Shown here piece by piece: positions 4,561 to 27,617 of a stretch of DNA of 43,661 nt (its first letter is position 1; each line of letters begins with the position of its first letter). The stretch comes from a virus. The notes under the pieces were generated by a model, which saw only the letters and a list, made by a program, of their open reading frames with translations, ran no database searches and was not told the DNA's origin. The translations under genes were made by a program, and so were the position numbers. The stretch is taken from the IMG/VR virus record IMGVR_UViG_3300003323_000989, positions 1 to 43,661 of that record. The stretch is one strand, 5' to 3'.

Positions 4561-6345
4561 CTAGAGTTCCACGCCGCCGCCTTGAAAATCGCTGGCACTG
4601 AATCCCGTTTGAATCACGGTCGCAGGCTTGATGGTCTTCGGGTCTGATTGCGGCGAAACGACGTTCACGATGTGGCCTGTTGGAATGCCCTCCAATCCCG
4701 TTGATGCACCAACGACGGTCGCCATTGATTGCCCGTATTTGTCGAGACCCACCAAGCAGTAGAGGCCTGTGTGCACATAATGGTCTGGGCCTTTGCGCTT
4801 CCACACGTACTCATTCGCATAGAGCGTTTTGTCGTCGCGTCCAGGCTGTGACTGGTTGTAGGTGTCTTCAACGCCTGCTTTCAGTACCACTTTCTCGCGG
4901 TAGATGTTATCGAAATGCGCTGCCCATGGTTGCCATTCTTCTGTCGTGCCATTGAGCACAATCAGGCCAGGGTCACGCAAATGCTCCACAAATAGCTGAA
5001 TCATGTTATTGCGGTCAACGACAACGGTGCCGTATTCCTCGCCCTCGCCCCACTCGATGATAGTGCTCTTCTTCTTCGGCTTTCGGTAGTACACCAAGAA
5101 CACACGGCCAGGAAATTCTTTCTGCAGCTTTCGAATACCAATCAAATCGCCGCCCTGGTCAGCAATGAGTTTTGCGCGCGGCCATCGAATGAGGAATGAA
5201 CGCAAGCGGTCGTATGGGTCATAGAGTCCTTGTGCATCCGCAAGCTTCTCTGCTGTCGTCTCAGGCTCGCAGGTTCCGTAGTAAAAGAAGCCGTCCTTGT
5301 TGGCCAGTGAAAAGTGAATCGGCAGGCCTGTATCAACGCCAATGATGATGTCTGACGTTTGCTCATTGACCACATCCAAGCAATTTTTAAGCACCTGTTC
5401 TGAAGTGATTTTGTCGGCGCTCCCGATGAATGGAAGGCCCAACACATAGTTCCAAAAATATTGCTTGGTCTTCTTCGGGTCACGCCATGCTTCGATGATT
5501 TTCTTTGCAGTAATCCAGGCGCACATCATTTGAGAAATATGATAGCCACGGAAGATGCCTTGAGCCGTTGGAAGCCAACGCCCTTTGCGGCGCACATCAT
5601 CAGAGAGTTCACCCTTGCAGCGCTTGCATATATAAATCTGGCGCTCAATGTCGATGCTCATTTTCGAAGGGTCTTTCTCGTCCCATTCAAGCACCTGCTC
5701 CATTTGGCAATGCGGGCACACAATGAACCATTCACGCTTGTCCGATTGCTCCCAATACACGCTGACGCCATGACCCACCAATGAAGGGTGCGAGAAATAC
5801 CAGCGCCAGCCATCGGCAACGGCTTGTTGGCGCGTCTCGTATTGCGTAATGACATCGGGGTCAGATGCATCCACTTCGTCGTGAATGTTCAATTGCGAGG
5901 ACACCATCATTGCTTGCTTGGCCGCAAACGTTCCACGGTAGTGGATGATGTTATTGCCAACGCTCTTTTGTTCTACTGTGTCGTGGTCACGCACCATTTC
6001 TTGCAGGATAGGATTTTGCGCAATCAAACGATTCACCTTTGAACCAACCATGTCGTCGCGGTCAGTCGCAGTGGGCAGTGTGTAGATGATGTCCTTTTTC
6101 TTTTTCTTGGCCACATAAAAGCTCTTCACAATCTCCGTCTCTGATGCACCGATTTGCGGTGGCTTCAGCCATACCTGCAGCGGTGACATATCGTTCAGAG
6201 GGTCTTTCATGAATGCATGGTCAGTAAATTCAAAAGGCAGACCATTGGAGGTTTTCATTTGGTGCTGCTTCACCCACGTATAGGGATACAATTCAGCAGC
6301 TTCGAGCACTTGCGCGTTTGTGTACTCTTTACCGTCTATCAGCAT
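4561..6345 (-). CDS. terL: Terminase large subunit (GpA-like)
   Basis: 594 residues from the ATG at 6345. An N-terminal ATPase has a Walker A-like PPQIGASE at about 62-69 and a Walker B-like LNIHDEVD at about 152-159. A zinc ribbon follows (CPHC at 210-213, CKRC at 240-243), as in the lambda GpA group. The C-terminal RNase H-like nuclease begins at IIIGVDTG (about 334-341) with further acidic positions such as AKLIADQGGD. It cuts concatemers and pumps DNA into the procapsid. The frame is open further upstream (to 6429), but that extension reads through a tRNA-Leu gene and is not real. The start has no Shine-Dalgarno site; it lies one base after the tRNA discriminator base. Confidence 0.93.
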   Translation of the reverse strand: MLIDGKEYTNAQVLEAAELYPYTWVKQHQMKTSNGLPFEFTDHAFMKDPLNDMSPLQVWLKPPQIGASETEIVKSFYVAKKKKKDIIYTLPTATDRDDMVGSKVNRLIAQNPILQEMVRDHDTVEQKSVGNNIIHYRGTFAAKQAMMVSSQLNIHDEVDASDPDVITQYETRQQAVADGWRWYFSHPSLVGHGVSVYWEQSDKREWFIVCPHCQMEQVLEWDEKDPSKMSIDIERQIYICKRCKGELSDDVRRKGRWLPTAQGIFRGYHISQMMCAWITAKKIIEAWRDPKKTKQYFWNYVLGLPFIGSADKITSEQVLKNCLDVVNEQTSDIIIGVDTGLPIHFSLANKDGFFYYGTCEPETTAEKLADAQGLYDPYDRLRSFLIRWPRAKLIADQGGDLIGIRKLQKEFPGRVFLVYYRKPKKKSTIIEWGEGEEYGTVVVDRNNMIQLFVEHLRDPGLIVLNGTTEEWQPWAAHFDNIYREKVVLKAGVEDTYNQSQPGRDDKTLYANEYVWKRKGPDHYVHTGLYCLVGLDKYGQSMATVVGASTGLEGIPTGHIVNVVSPQSDPKTIKPATVIQTGFSASDFQGGGVEL

Positions 6346-6346
6346 G

Positions 6347-6435
6347 TCCGTAGGGGGAGACTCGAACTCCCAGGTAGGGATTAGACCCTTACTGCTCTTG
6401 AGGCAGGCGCGTGTATACCATTCCACCACCTACGG
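6347..6435 (-). tRNA. tRNA-Leu (CAA)
   Basis: The acceptor stem is seven perfect pairs, CCGTAGG with CCTACGG, and A73 follows at 6347. Anticodon loop CTCAAGA, a long class II variable arm (GGG with CCC) and T arm GGGAG-TTCGAGT-CTCCC are present. CCA is not encoded. This is the only tRNA on the leftward strand, and it is squeezed between overlapping coding regions: an upstream ORF ends inside it and the terL ATG follows one base after the discriminator. Confidence 0.93.
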
Positions 6436-9431: not shown

Positions 9432-10991
9432 TTACATTACTTGGGATGGCCCCATTTGGGCAGGCACTGCCACCTTTTCCATTTCGATACCGACGCGCGC
9501 CGTGAGAATCGTTGCCGCTACAGAGATTGCATTGCGCACGGAACTCATGGTCACTGATGCAGGGTCAACGATTTGAGCCGCCCACATATCAGTGTACTTC
9601 CCGCTGCGAACATCATAACCGTAAAAGTCACCTGACTTCACATTCGCAATGAATGCATCGCCGTCTTCTGCACCCGCATTCTTGATGATTTGCCACATAG
9701 GAACTTTCAGAGCGCGACGCAAGATATTGCCGCCAAGTGTGTCTGGCATTTTGAGTGACGCTTGCAGCAAAGCGACACCGCCGCCCGCTACAACACCTCC
9801 ATGCAATGCCTGATATGCAGCATTGCGAGCGTCTTCTACCTTGAGGCGCTTATACGAAAGCGCTGCATCTGTAGGTGCGCCAACGAAGAGGCGCGCAGTC
9901 TTTGTATTCAGTCGCGCCGCGCGTATTTTCGACTCATCGTCATCGGATTCGCTCAGTGTTTTGATGTAGTCAGAGATGTCGAGCGTGCCATCCAAGAAGG
10001 AGTTATTTTTATCCGCCAAGAAGCTGCCTACCTTTCCGAGGTGTTGAATGCGCAATTGCTGGAAGTTGAGGCCCGCTGCAGGGTCAATCACTGTCGCGCC
10101 TGTGAGCTTTGCCAAATCTTCGAACCATTGGTCTTTCCATACCGTCGGAAGTTTCACAGCGATAACACGGAAGCCATTTTTGAAGCGCGTGGTTACAAGG
10201 TCAGGAATGACTGTCGGCTCCATTTCATCGCAAAACATTACGAGGTCGCGCACGTTTTTATTCACCAATTGCCCAATGATGGTTTCCAAATCGCGGCGCG
10301 CATTCGTCAGCTTCTGCTTGGTGATAAGCACGGTTGCGTCACGCGCAGTCGCTGCATTCATTGGCTGCATGGTCTTCTCATCCACATCAGCGAGATACGG
10401 TGAAACGAGTCCCGCGTCATCCACTTTCACACCGCTGCCGATGCTGTAGTGGTCGTCGAATGTCTTTGAAACGTCAGGGTATAGAATGCCGTCCTTCCCT
10501 ATCTGCTGATAGATTTCCTGAATGAGCGCGCCAATCTTTGGGTCTTCGGCGCTCACTGATGCGACGGTGCCTACATCGTCCACCGTGATTTCTTTCGTTT
10601 GGTCTTTCAGCGCCGCTTCGATAATCGGAATGCACTCTTCAAGCGAGCGCTTCATATCCATTGCGGTTGCGTTGTATGTCGCGCCTTCTTTGATGATTGC
10701 CTGCGCGAGCGTCACTGCCGTCGTCGTGCCATCGCCACCGTGCTTGTCTGAACGTGTGGCAATTTCTTTCATGACATTTGCCCCCATCATTTCCACAGGG
10801 TCTTCCAGGTTAATTTCACGCGCTATCGACACCCCGTCATTCGTGACGATGTAGAAGGGATATTCAAATTTCTCGATAATGGCGTTATAGCCTGCCGCGC
10901 CAAGCGTCCCCTTCACTGCGTCTGCTACTTTGTTTGCGCCCGCAATGAGCTTCGCGCGCGCTTCATCCCCTGTGTGTAGATTCTCTTTCAT
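9432..10991 (-). CDS. groEL: Phage-encoded chaperonin GroEL (Hsp60)
   Basis: 519 residues against about 548 for the E. coli protein. Equatorial ATP site: VTNDGVSIAREIN gives Asp52, and GGDGTTT at 85-91 gives Asp87, the same numbers as in E. coli. The later catalytic Asp sits in KVEDAR (about 387, E. coli 398), followed by GVVAGGGVAL. GYDVRSGKYTDMWAAQIVDP matches the nucleotide-contact segment near the C-terminus. Apical domain present (about 185-365). The Gly-Gly-Met tail is missing; the protein ends AQMGPSQVM. It should form an ATP-driven folding ring for capsid or other phage proteins. A GroES-like gene lies four genes upstream. Confidence 0.96.
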   Translation of the reverse strand: MKENLHTGDEARAKLIAGANKVADAVKGTLGAAGYNAIIEKFEYPFYIVTNDGVSIAREINLEDPVEMMGANVMKEIATRSDKHGGDGTTTAVTLAQAIIKEGATYNATAMDMKRSLEECIPIIEAALKDQTKEITVDDVGTVASVSAEDPKIGALIQEIYQQIGKDGILYPDVSKTFDDHYSIGSGVKVDDAGLVSPYLADVDEKTMQPMNAATARDATVLITKQKLTNARRDLETIIGQLVNKNVRDLVMFCDEMEPTVIPDLVTTRFKNGFRVIAVKLPTVWKDQWFEDLAKLTGATVIDPAAGLNFQQLRIQHLGKVGSFLADKNNSFLDGTLDISDYIKTLSESDDDESKIRAARLNTKTARLFVGAPTDAALSYKRLKVEDARNAAYQALHGGVVAGGGVALLQASLKMPDTLGGNILRRALKVPMWQIIKNAGAEDGDAFIANVKSGDFYGYDVRSGKYTDMWAAQIVDPASVTMSSVRNAISVAATILTARVGIEMEKVAVPAQMGPSQVM

Positions 10992-17112: not shown

Positions 17113-17994
17113 ATGTCCAAAACTTCTCAGATTGAGGTAATCAATCAGGAGATAAACAGACAGCTTGCCAACGCCGAAGTCGGGCGTGCGCTCCTGGCGA
17201 CGACCTTCAAAGGTCTGACCGCTGTGACGATGAAGCAAGCAATCATGGAGGGAATGATTCGCGGCTTTCGCTTCGAAGACTTCCTGAAAAAGAATGTGTA
17301 CGCCATCCCGTTCAGGGATAGGCAGAACAACAGGGATTCATACTCTCTCATCACATCCATCGACTACGCGCGCAAAATTGGCGCGAAGAGTGGCATTGTG
17401 GGGAAAGATGCGCCCAAATACGAAATGGATGGAAAGCACATCGTTTCGTGCTCTGTGACCGTGCACAAGAAGACGGGCAACTACATCGGTGACTTCACTG
17501 CTGAAGTCTACTTTGATGAGTTCGACACGGGCAAAAACCTGTGGGTCTCAAAGCCGCGCGTCATGATTGCAAAGGTCGCAGAGATGCACGCGCTTCGCAG
17601 CGCCTGCCCTGAAGAGCTTTCGCAGCTTTATGCTGAAGAAGAGCTTGAATCAGAGAAGGTAGAGCCGATGAAACCGTACACGGTCGCGCGCGTGATTCCT
17701 GCTGAAGATGATGAAGCAGGCGGATACCACGCCGACCCTGAAGTACCGAAGGCAGACGAGCCAGTGAATGAACCAGTGGCTGAAGTCGTGCCCGAAGAGC
17801 CAGCGGTCGAAGAAAAGCCGCGCGACGTGAAGGTCATGAAAAAAGAGATTGCCGACCTTCTCTACAAAAAGGCCAAGTTCACATCGCTTGGAAAGACGCA
17901 GGACAAAATCAGTGACAAGATATTTGACCTCGTAGGCATCGCCTACAGGGAAGAAAATTATCCAGCGATAATCGAAGAGCTTCAAAGCCTATGA
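17113..17994 (+). CDS. recT: RecT/Bet-family single-strand annealing protein
   Basis: 293 residues. The N-terminal two thirds match the RecT pattern: AIMEGMIRGFRFEDFLKKNV, AIPFRDRQNNRDSYSLITSI, a beta core with SVTVHKKTGNYIGDFTAEVYF, and the family signature KPRVMIAKVAEMHALRSACPEELSQLYAEEE (about 148-178). The C-terminal third is an acidic Pro/Glu/Val-rich linker (about 185-235) and a basic helical end. Such proteins anneal complementary strands during phage recombination. No partner exonuclease is visible; RusA at the end of the unit would resolve the junctions. Confidence 0.9.
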   Translation: MSKTSQIEVINQEINRQLANAEVGRALLATTFKGLTAVTMKQAIMEGMIRGFRFEDFLKKNVYAIPFRDRQNNRDSYSLITSIDYARKIGAKSGIVGKDAPKYEMDGKHIVSCSVTVHKKTGNYIGDFTAEVYFDEFDTGKNLWVSKPRVMIAKVAEMHALRSACPEELSQLYAEEELESEKVEPMKPYTVARVIPAEDDEAGGYHADPEVPKADEPVNEPVAEVVPEEPAVEEKPRDVKVMKKEIADLLYKKAKFTSLGKTQDKISDKIFDLVGIAYREENYPAIIEELQSL

Positions 17995-24321: not shown

Positions 24322-24396
24322 GCAATCGTAACTCGATGGAAGAGTGTCCCGTTGTCTGCGGGAGGGGTGCGGGTTCGAGTCCCGTCGATTGCGCCA
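24322..24396 (+). tRNA. tRNA-Asp (GTC)
   Basis: Acceptor GCAATCG/CGATTGC perfect, D stem ACTC/GAGT, anticodon arm TCCCG-TTGTCTG-CGGGA, T arm GCGGG-TTCGAGT-CCCGT, CCA encoded. First tRNA of the array. Confidence 0.95.
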
Positions 24397-24397
24397 A

Positions 24398-24471
24398 GTC
24401 AGATTTGTTTCAGGTGAAACATTGCCTCTCATAAGGGCGATTCGACCGTTCGATTCGGTAGTCTGACACCA
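24398..24471 (+). tRNA. tRNA-Met or tRNA-Ile2 (CAT)
   Basis: Acceptor GTCAGAT/GTCTGAC, D stem GTTT/AAAC, anticodon loop CTCATAA, T arm ACCG-stem with TTCGATT loop, CCA encoded. If C34 is changed to lysidine it would read AUA, but a TAT-anticodon Ile tRNA is also present, so elongator Met is more likely. Confidence 0.88.
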
Positions 24472-24544
24472 AGCCTTGAAATTCTGCGGTGGAATGCCCG
24501 CCTGTTAAGCGGAGATGACGCTGGTTCGAATCCAGCCGAGGCTG
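24472..24544 (+). tRNA. tRNA-Asn (GTT)
   Basis: Acceptor AGCCTTG/CGAGGCT with G73, anticodon loop CTGTTAA, T arm GCTGG-TTCGAAT-CCAGC. CCA not encoded (GCA follows). One C-A mismatch at the base of the anticodon stem. Confidence 0.92.
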
Positions 24545-24560
24545 CAAGTTGTGTATCAAC
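24545..24560 (+). repeat. 16-bp repeat with hairpin, copy 1
   Basis: CAAGTTGTGTATCAAC, which folds GTTG-TGTAT-CAAC. An identical copy lies at 26165-26180. Both separate two tRNAs. Confidence 0.8.
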
Positions 24561-24643
24561 GCATCAGATGTCGCTACGGTTAGCGAAGCTGCCTGTAAAG
24601 CAGATGCCTTCGGGTCAGCCTGGTTCGACTCCAGGGTGGTGCA
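24561..24643 (+). tRNA. tRNA-Tyr (GTA)
   Basis: Anticodon loop CTGTAAA, long variable arm with GCC-TTCG-GG as in bacterial Tyr tRNA, T arm CCTGG-TTCGACT-CCAGG. Acceptor GCATCAG/GTGGTGC with one G-G mismatch at 7-66. No full CCA. Confidence 0.88.
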
Positions 24644-24645
24644 CC

Positions 24646-24719
24646 GTCAGATTCGTCTAAAAGTAGGACGCGGCTCTTTCAAAGCCGTAACGCGGGGGCA
24701 GTACCCGTATCTGATACCA
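24646..24719 (+). tRNA. tRNA-Glu (TTC)
   Basis: Acceptor GTCAGAT/ATCTGAT, anticodon arm CGGCT-CTTTCAA-AGCCG, CCA encoded. The T loop reads GGCAGTA instead of the usual TTC type. Confidence 0.88.
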
Positions 24720-24793
24720 GACCTTTTCTTCTAGATGGTTCAGGAAGCGCGCTTCTCAAGCGTGAAACACGGGTTCGACTCCCGTAGAGGTCG
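24720..24793 (+). tRNA. tRNA-Glu (CTC)
   Basis: Begins at the base after the preceding CCA. Acceptor GACCTTT/AGAGGTC, anticodon arm CGCGC-TTCTCAA-GCGTG, T arm ACGGG-TTCGACT-CCCGT, G73, no complete CCA. Confidence 0.9.
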
Positions 24794-24846
24794 CCCATTT
24801 CCTCAATGGCGTAGCGGCAGGCTACGTATCGGCCAACCTGCCAAAC
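24794..24846 (+). other. Inter-tRNA spacer with hairpins
   Basis: 53 nt with CCATT-TCCTC-AATGG (24795-24809) and CGTAGC-GGCAG-GCTACG (24810-24826); GGCAGG also matches CCTGCC at 24837-24842. Possibly the remnant of a tRNA D arm. No complete tRNA can be drawn. Confidence 0.4.
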
Positions 24847-24919
24847 ACACTGTTAGCTCATGGGGCAGAGCGGCTATCTTACAAATAGCGGGCGGAAGGT
24901 TCGAGTCCTTCACGGTGTA
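24847..24919 (+). tRNA. tRNA-Val (TAC)
   Basis: Acceptor ACACTGT/ACGGTGT, anticodon arm GCTAT-CTTACAA-ATAGC, T arm GAAGG-TTCGAGT-CCTTC. CCA not encoded. Confidence 0.93.
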
Positions 24920-24920
24920 C

Positions 24921-24991
24921 ACGGAATTGGTCTACCAGAATGACATCTGCCTTCCAAGCAGAGAGAGCGAGTGCAATTCTCGCATTCCGTA
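24921..24991 (+). tRNA. tRNA-Gly (TCC)
   Basis: Acceptor ACGGAAT/ATTCCGT perfect, anticodon arm TCTGC-CTTCCAA-GCAGA, T arm GCGAG-TGCAATT-CTCGC with a non-TTC loop. CCA not encoded; the next tRNA starts 2 nt later. Confidence 0.92.
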
Positions 24992-24992
24992 C

Positions 24993-25068
24993 ACGCAATT
25001 AGCCAAGCGGTAAGGCGCTCAGCTTATACCTGAGAGATTCGTTGGTTCGAGTCCAACATTGCGTACCA
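24993..25068 (+). tRNA. tRNA-Ile (TAT)
   Basis: Acceptor ACGCAAT/ATTGCGT, anticodon arm CTCAG-CTTATAC-CTGAG, T arm GTTGG-TTCGAGT-CCAAC, CCA encoded. An unmodified TAT anticodon for AUA is unusual in bacteria, which mostly use lysidine-modified CAT. Confidence 0.92.
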
Positions 25069-25194
25069 GCATTCAGTATCGTAAGTCCCTCACCGTTATC
25101 ATGGCCGCGCAGAGGTAGTGGGGTAGACGCTCCCGAAGACCACGAGCATGACTTGAGGCATAAGGGAAGGCAACAACGCGGAAATACTGAATGT
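25069..25194 (+). ncRNA. Unassigned structured RNA inside the tRNA array
   Basis: About 125 nt between tRNA-Ile and tRNA-Arg closed by a perfect 10-bp helix CATTCAGTAT (25070-25079) with ATACTGAATG (25184-25193). Inside is a long interrupted arm: CCTCA/TGAGG, TCATG/CATGA, GTGG/CCAC and GGG/CCC nested in order, then a 25-nt 3' stretch with AAGGGAAGGCAACAACG. CCGCG also matches CGCGG near the closing helix. It is not a tRNA, 5S, SRP or tmRNA pattern that I know. The regular spacing from both tRNAs suggests it is released with them. Confidence 0.65.
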
Positions 25195-25200
25195 GTTGAG

Positions 25201-25270
25201 TTCCCATAGTTCAACAGACAGAATGCTTGTGTTCTAAACAAGCGATTGGGGTGCAAATCCTCATGGGAAT
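25201..25270 (+). tRNA. tRNA-Arg (TCT)
   Basis: Acceptor TTCCCAT/ATGGGAA perfect, anticodon arm CTTGT-GTTCTAA-ACAAG, T arm TGGGG-TGCAAAT-CCTCA with a non-TTC loop. Discriminator T, no CCA. Confidence 0.9.
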
Positions 25271-25272
25271 AC

Positions 25273-25346
25273 GCGAATGTCGTATATTGGCAGTACGACT
25301 GCTTGCCAAGCAGTAAGGGAGGGGTCAGTACCCTCCATTCGCACCA
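25273..25346 (+). tRNA. tRNA-Gly (GCC)
   Basis: Acceptor GCGAATG/CATTCGC, anticodon arm ACTGC-TTGCCAA-GCAGT, T arm GAGGG-GTCAGTA-CCCTC with an odd loop, CCA encoded. Confidence 0.92.
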
Positions 25347-25417
25347 GCTTCGATAGCTCAGTGGTAGAGCAACCGCCTGAAGAGCGGTGGATAGTGGTTC
25401 GATTCCACTTCAAAGCA
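25347..25417 (+). tRNA. tRNA-Phe (GAA)
   Basis: Starts at the base after the preceding CCA. Anticodon arm ACCGC-CTGAAGA-GCGGT, T arm AGTGG-TTCGATT-CCACT, acceptor GCTTCGA/TCAAAGC with one C-A mismatch. CCA incomplete (ACCT). The RNase P RNA begins about 4 nt later. Confidence 0.9.
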
Positions 25418-25420
25418 CCT

Positions 25421-25767
25421 GTCAGGAATGGAAGACGACAGCTCTAGCTCTAATCAAGCGGAGAGGAAATTCGGGACTGCTTCTCCTACTCGGGAGAAAC
25501 GGTGGCGGGTAACGCCCGCACGCAGTAATGCGCGACCTGCGAACAGTGACGAATCGTTTTGAGTGAAACACTGGGCGAAAGCCCCGTTCGGCTATGCTGC
25601 AGCAAAAGCTGAAGGGTGTTTCACGCGAAACGGGTGAAACGGCTAAATGGACACTGGGCAGCGATGAGCGAGCCGTAAAATCGGAGCCTCAGCAAAGAGT
25701 TTCACAGCAATGTGAGACCAAGGCAGATTGTCGTCCTAGACAGAATCCCGATTACGAAATTCCTGGT
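25421..25767 (+). ncRNA. rnpB: RNase P RNA (catalytic RNA subunit)
   Basis: About 347 nt. P1: TCAGGAAT (25422-25429) with ATTCCTGG (25759-25766). P2: GACGACA (25434-25440) with TGTCGTC (25729-25735). P4: AATTCGGGA (25468-25476) pairs with TCCCGATT (25746-25753) and leaves one T bulged at the place of the universal U69, with compensatory changes against E. coli. Core blocks in order: GAGAGGAAATTCGGG (CR-I), GGCGGGTAACGCCCGC (CR-II), GACCTGCGAACAGTGA (CR-III), ACGGCTAAATGG (CR-IV region), GACAGAATCCCGATTACG (CR-V). It cleaves 5' leaders of pre-tRNA and lies in the middle of a tRNA array, so it probably matures its own neighbours. The L15 region shows GGA or TGG rather than a clear GGU for the tRNA CCA; many tRNAs here do not encode CCA. 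No RnpA protein gene was seen, so host protein is likely used. Confidence 0.94.
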
Positions 25768-25773
25768 AGATTC

Positions 25774-25845
25774 ACGTTTATAGCTCAATGGACAGAGCAC
25801 CGCTCTTCGAAAGCGGGGATTGAGGTTCGATTCCTCATAGGCGTA
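25774..25845 (+). tRNA. tRNA-Arg (TCG)
   Basis: Acceptor ACGTTTA/TAGGCGT, anticodon arm CCGCT-CTTCGAA-AGCGG, T arm TGAGG-TTCGATT-CCTCA. CCA not encoded. Starts 7 nt after the P1 helix of the RNase P RNA. Confidence 0.93.
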
Positions 25846-25846
25846 C

Positions 25847-25932
25847 ATGTGTGTGGTGGAATGGCAGACACAACTGTCTTAGAAACAGTCGAGCTTTGCT
25901 CAATGGAGGTTCGAGTCCTCTCACACATACCA
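25847..25932 (+). tRNA. tRNA-Leu (TAG)
   Basis: Acceptor ATGTGTG/CACACAT perfect, anticodon arm ACTGT-CTTAGAA-ACAGT, long variable arm with GAGC-TTT-GCTC, T arm GGAGG-TTCGAGT-CCTCT, CCA encoded. The permuted tRNA candidate starts at the next base. Confidence 0.94.
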
Positions 25933-26004
25933 GCCGAAGATACGGGTTCGACTCCCGTTGGGTAGCCCCGTGCTGCACATCGTCTAATTGGTAGGACATC
26001 GGTG
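25933..26004 (+). tRNA. Candidate circularly permuted tRNA (3' half before 5' half)
   Basis: 3' half: GCCGA (25933-25937), AGAT, T arm ACGGG-TTCGACT-CCCGT (25942-25958), acceptor strand TGGGTAG (25959-25965). Seven bases later the 5' half: acceptor CTGCACA (25973-25979), D arm with GTCT-AATTGGTA-GGAC (25982-25997), then TCGGT (25999-26003). The two halves fit together: acceptor strands pair in six of seven positions (with a G3-T70 wobble), and TCGGT pairs with GCCGA in all five to form the anticodon stem. The anticodon cannot be read without knowing the join. An alternative is two tRNA remnants, but chance fit of both stems is unlikely. Confidence 0.6.
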
Positions 26005-26093
26005 TAAAGAAGATAAAGCAACAAGGCGTTGCCCGTCCCCGCTAAGGATAGGGAGCGAGAAATCGCTTGTGCTTCAAGTGCACTGTCTTCTGC
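26005..26093 (+). other. Structured spacer after the permuted tRNA candidate
   Basis: 89 nt with AGAAGA (near 26008-26013) matching TCTTCT (26086-26091), GCAAC-AAGGC-GTTGC (26019-26033), AGCG-AGAAAT-CGCT (about 26054-26067) and GTGC-TTCAAGT-GCAC, the last with a canonical T-loop sequence. It may hold the 3' trailer of the permuted tRNA or a tRNA T-arm remnant. Confidence 0.4.
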
Positions 26094-26164
26094 TGCCCGT
26101 TCGTCTAGCGGTAGGACGCTAAGCTCTGAACTTAGAAAGTGGGGTTCGAATCCCTGATGGGCAA
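26094..26164 (+). tRNA. tRNA-Gln (CTG)
   Basis: Acceptor TGCCCGT/ATGGGCA, D arm like Glu/Gln (GTCT/GGAC), anticodon arm CTAAG-CTCTGAA-CTTAG, T arm TGGGG-TTCGAAT-CCCTG. CCA not encoded. Confidence 0.93.
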
Positions 26165-26180
26165 CAAGTTGTGTATCAAC
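26165..26180 (+). repeat. 16-bp repeat with hairpin, copy 2
   Basis: Identical to 24545-24560 and again placed between two tRNAs. Confidence 0.8.
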
Positions 26181-26184
26181 AAAA

Positions 26185-26255
26185 TCCAGAGTCTTCTAAT
26201 GGTAGGAAGACGAGCTTTGAACTCGGAAATCGTGGTTCGATTCCATGCTCTGGAA
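26185..26255 (+). tRNA. tRNA-Gln (TTG)
   Basis: Acceptor TCCAGAG/CTCTGGA perfect, anticodon loop CTTTGAA, T arm CGTGG-TTCGATT-CCATG. CCA not encoded. One A-G mismatch at the base of the anticodon stem. Confidence 0.93.
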
Positions 26256-26256
26256 C

Positions 26257-26341
26257 GGAAGGTTAACCGTAATGGTAACGGCCCCGTCTTGAAAACGGGT
26301 TAGGCTTCACGGCCCTGCGAGTTCGAGTCCCGCACCTTCCT
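26257..26341 (+). tRNA. tRNA-Ser (TGA)
   Basis: Acceptor GGAAGGT/ACCTTCC perfect, anticodon arm CCCGT-CTTGAAA-ACGGG, long variable arm, T arm with TTCGAGT loop. No full CCA. It is the only Ser tRNA; none for AGC/AGU codons was found. Confidence 0.93.
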
Positions 26342-26343
26342 CC

Positions 26344-26416
26344 GCCCCCATAACTCAGTTGGTAGAGTAGCCGTCTTTTAAACGGAAGCGCCCTGGTTCG
26401 AACCCAGGTGAGGGCA
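26344..26416 (+). tRNA. tRNA-Lys (TTT)
   Basis: Acceptor GCCCCCA/TGAGGGC with one C-A mismatch, anticodon arm CCGT-CTTTTAA-ACGG, T arm CCTGG-TTCGAAC-CCAGG. CCA not encoded. Confidence 0.92.
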
Positions 26417-26417
26417 C

Positions 26418-26489
26418 AGGTAATTAATTCAGTGGCAGAATGCTGAACTGATACTTCAGTCGTCGCTGGTTCGATTCCAGCATTACCTA
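26418..26489 (+). tRNA. tRNA-Ile (GAT)
   Basis: Acceptor AGGTAAT/ATTACCT perfect, anticodon arm CTGAA-CTGATAC-TTCAG, T arm GCTGG-TTCGATT-CCAGC. CCA not encoded. Confidence 0.93.
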
Positions 26490-26490
26490 C

Positions 26491-26561
26491 GCTTTGATAG
26501 GTCAGTGGTAGACCGCCTTCTTGGTATGAAGGGAACGCGCGTTCGATTCGCGCTCGAAGCT
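26491..26561 (+). tRNA. tRNA-Thr (GGT)
   Basis: Acceptor GCTTTGA/TCGAAGC, anticodon arm CCTTC-TTGGTAT-GAAGG, T arm GCGCG-TTCGATT-CGCGC. No full CCA. Confidence 0.93.
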
Positions 26562-26563
26562 CC

Positions 26564-26639
26564 GCCGAAAAAGCACATGAGGATGTGTGACGCTTTCGTA
26601 AAGCGTAGGCAGTCGGTTCGAATCCGACTTTCGGCTCCA
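26564..26639 (+). tRNA. tRNA-Thr (CGT)
   Basis: Acceptor GCCGAAA/TTTCGGC perfect, D arm CACAT/ATGTG, anticodon arm ACGCT-TTCGTAA-AGCGT, T arm GTCGG-TTCGAAT-CCGAC, T73 and CCA encoded. Confidence 0.93.
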
Positions 26640-26713
26640 GCCGTGCTAACTCAATTGGTCAGAGTAGCGCTCTCTTAAAGCGAAGGTTGCTGGTTCGACT
26701 CCAGCGCGCGGCA
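26640..26713 (+). tRNA. tRNA-Lys (CTT)
   Basis: Acceptor GCCGTGC/GCGCGGC, anticodon loop CTCTTAA with CGCT/AGCG, T arm GCTGG-TTCGACT-CCAGC. ACCC instead of ACCA follows. Starts at the base after the preceding CCA. Confidence 0.93.
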
Positions 26714-26715
26714 CC

Positions 26716-26790
26716 CGTCTCGTCGTTCAATAGAAAGGATGCATCCCCGCGAAGGATGCGATGTTGGTGCAATTCCAGCCGAGATGACCA
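26716..26790 (+). tRNA. tRNA-Arg (GCG)
   Basis: Acceptor CGTCTCG/CGAGATG, anticodon arm CATCC-CCGCGAA-GGATG, T arm GTTGG-TGCAATT-CCAGC, CCA encoded. Base 33 is C instead of the near-universal U, and a G34 Arg anticodon is unusual, so this tRNA is atypical. Confidence 0.75.
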
Positions 26791-26865
26791 GGGGATTTAG
26801 TGCTAATGGCAACATGGGTCACTTGCAATGACTCGTCACGGGTTCGATTCCCGTAATCTCCACCA
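26791..26865 (+). tRNA. tRNA-Ala (TGC)
   Basis: Acceptor GGGGATT/AATCTCC with the G3-T70 pair read by AlaRS, anticodon arm GGTCA-CTTGCAA-TGACT, T arm ACGGG-TTCGATT-CCCGT, CCA encoded. Confidence 0.94.
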
Positions 26866-26939
26866 CAGGATAAAGCGTTACGGTAGCGTTCATGGCCTGG
26901 AACCATGCGGCGTAGGTTCGACTCCTACTATCCTGACCA
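26866..26939 (+). tRNA. tRNA-Pro (TGG)
   Basis: Acceptor CAGGATA/TATCCTG perfect, anticodon arm CATGG-CCTGGAA-CCATG, T arm GTAGG-TTCGACT-CCTAC, CCA encoded. Base 33 is C. Confidence 0.9.
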
Positions 26940-27016
26940 GATTTGATGGTGAAGCGGTTTAACACGGGAGCCTGCAAAGCTCTTATTCGTCGGTTCGAAT
27001 CCGACTCAAATCTCCA
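26940..27016 (+). tRNA. tRNA-Cys (GCA)
   Basis: Acceptor GATTTGA/TCAAATC perfect, anticodon loop CTGCAAA with GAGC/GCTC, T arm GTCGG-TTCGAAT-CCGAC, T73 and CCA encoded. Confidence 0.94.
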
Positions 27017-27088
27017 GGGTGATAGCAGATGGTCTGCACGCGGCCTCCAAAACCGCTTTTGAGGGTTCGATTCCTTCATTGCCCGCCA
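27017..27088 (+). tRNA. tRNA-Trp (CCA)
   Basis: Acceptor GGGTGAT/ATTGCCC, anticodon loop CTCCAAA, T arm GAGGG-TTCGATT-CCTTC, G73 and CCA encoded. Confidence 0.92.
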
Positions 27089-27089
27089 A

Positions 27090-27166
27090 GGTGTTCGTAG
27101 TGTAGTGGTCTGCACCTCTGACTGTGAATCAGAAAGTGTCGGGTTCGATTCCCGCCATACACCCCA
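27090..27166 (+). tRNA. tRNA-His (GTG)
   Basis: Anticodon arm TCTGA-CTGTGAA-TCAGA, T arm TCGGG-TTCGATT-CCCGC, CCA encoded. The extra G at -1 opposite C73, a His identity feature, fits. Two mismatches lie near the base of the acceptor stem. Confidence 0.88.
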
Positions 27167-27241
27167 GCCATCAAAGCGTAGATAGCGACGCAGCGGCTTT
27201 GTAATCCGCAGAGCGAGGTGCATGCCCTCGTGGTGGCCCCA
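27167..27241 (+). tRNA. tRNA-Thr (TGT)
   Basis: Acceptor GCCATCA/TGGTGGC, D stem GCGT/ACGC, anticodon loop TTTGTAA, T arm CGAGG-TGCATGC-CCTCG with a non-TTC loop, C73 and CCA encoded. Last tRNA of the array. Confidence 0.9.
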
Positions 27242-27263: not shown

Positions 27264-27617
27264 ATGCTGGTTCTGAAACCTGCACCACTATCTACCAACA
27301 ATATCTATAAAGTCGTCCGCTTCGGTAATCGCGGCGGCATCATGATGTCTGCAGAAGGGAAATCGCTCAAAGAGCTATACCAATGGCAGGCAAAATCGCA
27401 ATGGAAATCACCCCTTTTGAAGGGAGATTTGCGTGTGGAAGCGCACATTTTTTACAGGGACAAGCGAAAGCGCGACATTGATAACGGCAATAAAATTCTT
27501 TTCGATTCGCTCACAGGAATCGTGTTTGATGACGACTCGCAGATTCAGCAACTTTACTTAGTAAAGTCATACGATAAGCAAGACCCCCGTGTGGAAATCT
27601 CAGTGTACGAAATTTGA
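27264..27617 (+). CDS. rusA: RusA-family Holliday junction resolvase
   Basis: 117 residues. RusA signature: KRKRDIDNGNKILFDSLTGI then VFDDDSQIQQLYLVKSYDKQDPRVEI, including the three acidic residues of the active site (the Asp pair in RDID and the DDD block) and the conserved Lys. The N-terminal part is the usual beta strand set. It resolves branched recombination intermediates and would act with the RecT protein at the other end of this unit. It starts 23 nt after the last tRNA, so it is probably on the array transcript. Confidence 0.9.
   Translation: MLVLKPAPLSTNNIYKVVRFGNRGGIMMSAEGKSLKELYQWQAKSQWKSPLLKGDLRVEAHIFYRDKRKRDIDNGNKILFDSLTGIVFDDDSQIQQLYLVKSYDKQDPRVEISVYEI

Follow-up and report, generated by a model that had tools for sequence, protein, structure and literature searches.

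An RNase P RNA gene inside the tRNA array of a 43.7-kb phage, and its recurrence in tRNA arrays of other viral sequences

An RNase P RNA gene lies within a tRNA array in a virus record of 43,661 nucleotides (IMG/VR record IMGVR_UViG_3300003323_000989; "the window" denotes this entire stretch), and comparable genes occur in the tRNA arrays of many other virus records. RNase P RNA is the RNA enzyme with which cells trim their tRNAs, a nearly universal ribozyme that is viewed as a housekeeping component. Our preferred reading, to which we assign a probability of roughly three in four, is that the window encodes a working RNase P RNA of Elusimicrobiota-like origin, which joins the RnpA protein of the host and cuts phage pre-tRNAs transcribed together with it. 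The locus is a real RNase P RNA of an already known family; its setting in tRNA arrays and its recurrence across phages are apparently unreported. The open full-text literature, from which most subscription papers and preprints are missing, yielded no description of RNase P RNA in a phage, such that priority is not established.

The window RNA matches the Rfam model for bacterial class A RNase P RNA (RF00010, RNaseP_bact_a) over model positions 1-367, the full length of the model. The cmscan match falls at the same location whether 391 bases (E = 4.1e-22), 3.7 kb including the array (E = 3.9e-21) or the entire virus record (E = 1.0e-23) are searched. The preliminary description had proposed scoring against the class A covariance model as a check, and the outcome is significant at 72.1 bits, albeit under the curated gathering cut-off of 100 bits. 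At that default threshold an Rfam search reports only tRNAs here and no RNase P RNA; the most diverged phage RNase P RNAs escape default Rfam thresholds. The folding energy of the RNA has a z of -4.5 in a shuffle test, and none of 100 shuffles equals it. The identification as RNase P RNA made in the preliminary description is supported by the full-length match, by covariation in P4 and by Elusimicrobiota RNAs of related structure.

Table 1. Positions of the RNase P RNA gene, its structural elements and neighboring genes in the window.
Feature	Position	Strand	Basis or remark
Terminase large subunit	4561..6429	-	phrog_675, E 4e-77; used for finding phage relatives
RecT-family protein	17113..17994	+	PF03837, E 7e-12; upstream of array, same strand
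Upstream tRNA array	24322..25419	+	ARAGORN, Rfam; last is tRNA-Phe, 25347-25419
RNase P RNA gene, class A-like, without P13/P14	25422..25770	+	RF00010 full-length match, 72.1 bits
P1 5' strand	25422..25429	+	pairs with 25759-25766; 8 standard pairs
P2 5' strand	25434..25441	+	pairs with 25728-25735; 8 standard pairs
CR-I	25463..25478	+	GAGGAAAUUCGGGACU; includes P4 5' strand, 25468-25476, with bulged U25471
Hairpin between P5 and P7	25481..25498	+	7 bp; common to divergent Elusimicrobiota RNAs
CR-II	25543..25552	+	ACAGUGACGA; cmscan alignment
P12 with branched extension	25554..25633	+	6 + 9 bp, two hairpins; local fold z = -2.46
CR-III region	25634..25645	+	GGUGAAACGGCU; ends approximate; also in Elusimicrobiota
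J5/15 residue equivalent to E. coli A248	25663	+	G in window; hand-assigned, GGGCAGCGA against GGAGCAAGG
P15 and short L15	25665..25691	+	4 bp; GGU motif for tRNA 3' RCC not seen
P18 hairpin	25699..25718	+	8 bp, GCAA loop
CR-V	25740..25754	+	ACAGAAUCCCGAUUA; includes P4 3' strand, 25746-25753
Downstream tRNA array	25774..27238	+	ARAGORN, Rfam; first is tRNA-Arg, 25774-25846; last is Rfam tRNA, 27167-27238
RusA-family endodeoxyribonuclease	27264..27617	+	PF05866, E 2.5e-18; directly downstream of array

Helices of the window RNA were read by eye and then checked by script. P1, P2 and P4 form 8 base pairs each, in agreement with the pairing initially described, and standard pairs are present in each of P1, P2, P5, P7, P8, P9, P15 and P18. 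P3 comprises 6 bp, P5 and P9 4 bp each, and P7 and P8 5 bp each. CR-II is retained, and P10 consists of only 2-3 bp with one A.A mismatch. The P13/P14 and clear P16/P17 helices of canonical class A were not found in the window RNA, nor was GGU in its L15, which reads CGAGCCGUAAAAUCGGAGC; in known enzymes this GGU pairs with the 3' RCC of the tRNA (PMC10731613). These absences do not exclude membership in the family. The helices are optional, as their absence is not unusual among RNAs of the CPR and P13/P14 are lacking in divergent Elusimicrobiota RNAs, and the L15 GGU is not a required feature, given that it is absent from many cellular RNAs (PMC8172020).

Covariation in P4 is observed directly. 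The window helix keeps 8 of 8 pairs despite three double substitutions relative to E. coli, and U25471 corresponds to the bulged E. coli U69, which bears out the earlier statement that P4 retains its bulged U with covarying pairs. Its 5' strand, AAU[U]CGGGA, forms 8 of 8 pairs with its own 3' strand only. The pattern scans used to collect phage RNAs fixed the P4 5' strand in part (first scan) or neither strand (second scan); 16 of 17 distinct readable phage P4 helices retain all 8 pairs, compared with a mean of 2.6 and a maximum of 10 when the 3' strands of these 17 are shuffled. The phages show compensatory changes in a helix that varied little in the bacterial sample of the present analysis. 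Nonetheless, loss of function cannot be excluded for the window RNA, considering its score under the Rfam cut-off, weak P10, changed GGU and A248, and long branch. The same features (long branch, weak P10, altered A248, missing GGU) would also fit a passenger without present function, namely an RNase P RNA gene of host origin that came in with captured tRNA genes and may be decaying. A P4 that remains fully paired (8 of 8) despite three double changes argues against such decay, as does the pairing of P1, P2, P5, P7, P8, P9, P12, P15 and P18, and the RNA is probably functional, although its activity is inferred.

The gene fits closely between its tRNA neighbors, with 2 bases separating the end of tRNA-Phe (25419) from the start of P1 and 7 bases separating the end of P1 from tRNA-Arg (25774). 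The array contains at least 28 tRNAs, of which 26 are called by ARAGORN and two by Rfam (24646-24716 and 27167-27238). A probable tRNA-Tyr(GTA) with a long variable arm was recognized by eye at ~24571-24645 and is uncalled by either program; including it, the initial count of about 29 tRNAs is supported. With this tRNA-Tyr, the array (24322-27238) seems to serve all 20 amino acids, in a phage of 43.7 kb. Spacers are absent from 17 of the 25 junctions between neighboring tRNAs, tRNA tails end in NC, NCC or NCCA, and the nucleotide preceding the tRNA, N(-1), is C in 14 cases, A in 11, G in one and U in none. At 25933-26016 in the array, a tRNA 3' half (ACGGGUUCGACUCCCGU... GGGUAGC) lies upstream of a seemingly matching 5' half (GCUGCACAUCGUCUAAUUGGUAGGACAUCGGUGUAAAG), possibly a permuted or broken tRNA gene. 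A 131-nt spacer (25069-25199) is closed by CAUUCAGUAU/AUACUGAAUG; it matches no Rfam family and folds no better than its shuffles (z -0.55).

Beyond the genes of Table 1, the phage record carries genes for a Band 7 protein, an HNH protein and peptidase/endolysin-like proteins. A divergent GroEL-like chaperonin (phrog_5725; 9432-10991) is ~33% identical to known GroELs. Relatives identified through the terminase are 44-61% identical and include records of 38-43 kb. The large, near-complete ones hold 0-1 tRNAs, and RNase P RNA was not detected in any of the 49 terminase relatives, in a loose first look that a very diverged copy could escape. Because near-complete relatives have neither, array and RNA were seemingly acquired together as a single cassette. 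That these relatives manage without the RNA is also compatible with a passenger. No useful relative emerged from BLASTN searches of INPHARED phages in which the RNA, the tRNA array or 15 kb of genome served as query.

The arrangement is not confined to the window. A CR-I/CR-II pattern matched 53 viral contigs in IMG/VR, and 39 of 46 records searched (including four terminase relatives) exceed the RF00010 cut-off. A second pattern, designed for RNAs lacking P13/P14, matched 26 viral contigs, 22 of them new, and RF00010 was present in all 29 records checked. Clustered at 80% identity, the phage sequences form 48 distinct RNase P RNA clusters in IMG/VR, window RNA counted. Thirty-five of these reside in same-strand tRNA arrays, defined by three or more tRNAs on the same strand within 2.5 kb, and tRNAs flank 32 of the clusters on both sides. 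The view that rnpB in a phage is very unusual, put forward at the outset, therefore fails for tRNA-rich phages. Among bacterial loci collected with a similar pattern, only 3 of 119 have at least three tRNAs nearby. Two of these are from Mesorhizobium, in genomes that each also possess a 308-310-bit RNase P RNA; the third, from a Cytophagales bin that has a 219-bit copy as well, is identical to the copy in a phage contig. All three look like extra copies of phage or element type. The Mesorhizobium genomes (L169, L163; L378, L379) thus harbor, besides the normal RNA, a reduced second copy adjoining tRNA genes; one of them is Mesorhizobium temperatum (L169, L379). The recurrence of one arrangement in 35 separate clusters speaks against a passenger, and since bacterial rnpB rarely adjoins tRNA genes, simple joint capture is an unlikely explanation. 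We therefore consider it unlikely that the window RNA is a functionless remnant.

Genes for a portal protein, a tail fibre or a ribonucleotide reductase are located close to several of the arrays, and no 16S gene was found in 39 virus records. The phage nature of the contigs was judged from such neighboring genes (in some records) and the missing 16S, because terminase Pfam models proved a poor test (PF17289 in 0 of 39 records, PF03237 in 10 of 39). Host DNA may account for some of the 13 array-less clusters, a possibility that, together with the Elusimicrobiota type of the window RNA, leaves room for the objection that the window itself is a misassembled or misclassified bacterial fragment with a host rnpB. 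We give this very little credence. The window is classed as viral in IMG/VR and encodes terminase, RecT, RusA and endolysin-like proteins, phage genes flank the array on both sides, there are terminase relatives of 38-43 kb, and among the 119 bacterial loci no rnpB was seen in a comparable tRNA array except the phage- or element-like copies.

Other searches were less productive. Scanning for CR-I alone produced two chance matches, neither with RNase P RNA, and a class B pattern scan gave zero matches. When five phage RNase P RNAs were used as the query, 8 INPHARED records matched. Two that are filed as phages were rejected, CAKLQF020000022.1 as an Acinetobacter contig with host genes and AGRM01000002.1 as a Salmonella genome by its title; two unannotated faecal contigs contain a class A RNA and no tRNA arrays. 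No cultured phage example was found among the INPHARED matches inspected. Some viral records have further features of translation. tmRNA genes occur near RNase P RNA in seven phages (L340, L036, L054, L333, L334, L337, L341), and for L340 the predicted tag is unusually long. A tRNA with a CUA anticodon (L326:1816-1889), located in a phage array of 45 tRNAs together with an RNase P RNA, resembles an amber suppressor and might point to stop-codon recoding.

RnpA (PF00825) was not found in 40 virus records (the window and 39 others, some of them fragments), with 10 of 14 control genomes positive. With no rnpA found in the window, a complete phage-encoded RNase P holoenzyme is not supported. In the absence of an RnpA gene, the simplest reading is that the phage RNA works with host RnpA, an inference for which there are no binding data. 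The RNA and its flanking tRNAs would be transcribed as a single polycistron, and the RNA, joined to host RnpA, would cleave 5' of every phage tRNA. Most tRNAs abut directly and end in a complete or shortened CCA; a single RNase P cleavage would therefore release the 3' end of one tRNA together with the 5' end of the next, and truncated tails could be completed by CCA-adding enzyme. Cleavage at tRNA-Arg would also leave the ribozyme itself with only a few bases of 3' trailer. This role in maturing neighboring tRNAs is still an inference, without transcript, cleavage or RnpA-binding data. It is backed by the recurrence of arrays in 35 clusters, the absence of the RNA from array-less relatives, the zero-spacer junctions and a hint of enzyme-substrate tuning. 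Of the two motives suggested initially, a limiting or a mismatched host RNase P, neither is favored over the other by these data. It is also conceivable, if distinctly improbable, that the RNA acts mainly as a decoy, one that sequesters host RnpA and halts tRNA maturation in the host instead of serving the phage's own tRNAs. In favor of a decoy, any function in phages without an RnpA gene needs the host protein, and the RNA core is retained. However, a decoy would not need a position in the array, absence where the array is absent, or a catalytic P4 with bulged U, and loss of host RNase P would block phage tRNAs too unless the phage RNA were active.

The hint of tuning comes from residue 248. 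In known enzymes A248 in J5/15 contacts N(-1) and favors U (PMC10731613). This A is otherwise near-invariant and is altered to G in the window. Automatic assignment of residue 248 was unreliable; alignment and reading by eye were used, with positions partly hand-assigned. By this approach, only two array phages, the window and L085, have G248. These two have the lowest share of U(-1) among 35 arrays (0/26 and 1/9, or 1/35 combined, vs 349/568 in the remaining arrays). An early idea that G248 and substrates are not linked was abandoned once N(-1) had been counted in all 35 arrays. The chance of this outcome would be 1 in 595 had the G248 pair been named beforehand; the pair was noticed post hoc and consists of two phages only, and the absence of a spacer would by itself be enough to eliminate U(-1). 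In L338 and L332, whose arrays are dense but have A248, a short spacer with U at its end is kept instead. Tuning of enzyme to substrate through G248 is thus no more than a hint. The broader proposal, that phages commonly carry an array-built RNase P RNA that forms a hybrid with host RnpA and that here A248 changed to G in co-evolution with abutting tRNAs bearing C or A at N(-1), is tentative, and we are inclined to doubt it. If it were true, G248 and an array with C/A(-1) would constitute a phage-specific enzyme-substrate pair.

In a tree computed with P12 removed, the window RNA groups with 31 Elusimicrobiota RNAs (support 100/99) on a long branch. The motifs UGCGAACAG and GUGAAACGGCUAAA are common to the window and Elusimicrobiota RNAs and absent from every other phage RNA sampled. 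The two sequence motifs UGCGAACAG and GUGAAACGGCUAAAU are present in 31-32 of 40 Elusimicrobiota RNAs, in no other of 67 phage RNAs and in one of 119 bacterial loci, itself from Elusimicrobiota. The Elusimicrobiota genomes (loci L380-L449) are split between ordinary class A RNAs (~147-271 bits) and a divergent type (mostly ~80-132 bits) that is partly missed at Rfam cut-offs. The phage RNA may derive from an Elusimicrobiota-like host and have diverged since, possibly suiting substrates without U(-1). Terminase relatives in Elusimicrobiota genomes are few and distant (3/341), so only the RNA itself speaks for an Elusimicrobiota host; no survey for this RNA type covered other phyla, and the inferred host is a lead only. 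Other phage RNAs sit elsewhere in the trees than the window RNA, and on this basis phages have probably gained an RNase P RNA gene several times.

That dozens of unrelated phages carry RNase P RNA in this way suggests that it is common for phages to supply the tRNA-processing ribozyme themselves and to depend on the host for its protein partner. Such array RNAs extend the known phage translation toolkit by 5' processing. The dozens of diverged RNAs also constitute a natural collection for structure-function work, and offer a test of joint evolution between the N(-1) pocket of the enzyme and its substrates.

Huge phages encode tRNAs, synthetases, a CCA-adding enzyme and factors that act at many stages of translation, and RNase P is unmentioned in the survey describing them (PMC7162821). 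Compared with these, the window adds the 5'-end processing step, within a phage of only 43.7 kb. Bacterial class A RNAs (RF00010) share with the window RNA helices P1-P5, P7-P9, P12, P15 and P18, the order of CR-I to CR-V and the bulged U69. The window RNA differs from them in its score of only 72 bits, its lack of P13/P14 and of clear P16/P17, its extra hairpin between P5 and P7, its G248, its L15 without GGU and its encoding by a phage amid tRNA genes. The RNase P RNAs of the CPR were detected only under model thresholds, and many are without P13, P14, P16, P17 and the UGG/GGU motif (PMC8172020). They resemble the window RNA in their sub-threshold scores, missing helices and absence of UGG/GGU, but are cellular housekeeping genes for which no phage tRNA-array setting has been reported (PMC8172020). 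Closest in form are the divergent Elusimicrobiota RNAs, which have the P5-P7 hairpin, UGCGAACAG, GUGAAACGGCUAAAU and a branched P12 and likewise lack P13/P14. Unlike the window RNA, they are cellular genes, nearly always one per genome, with a stronger P10 and with A248 retained wherever it could be read.
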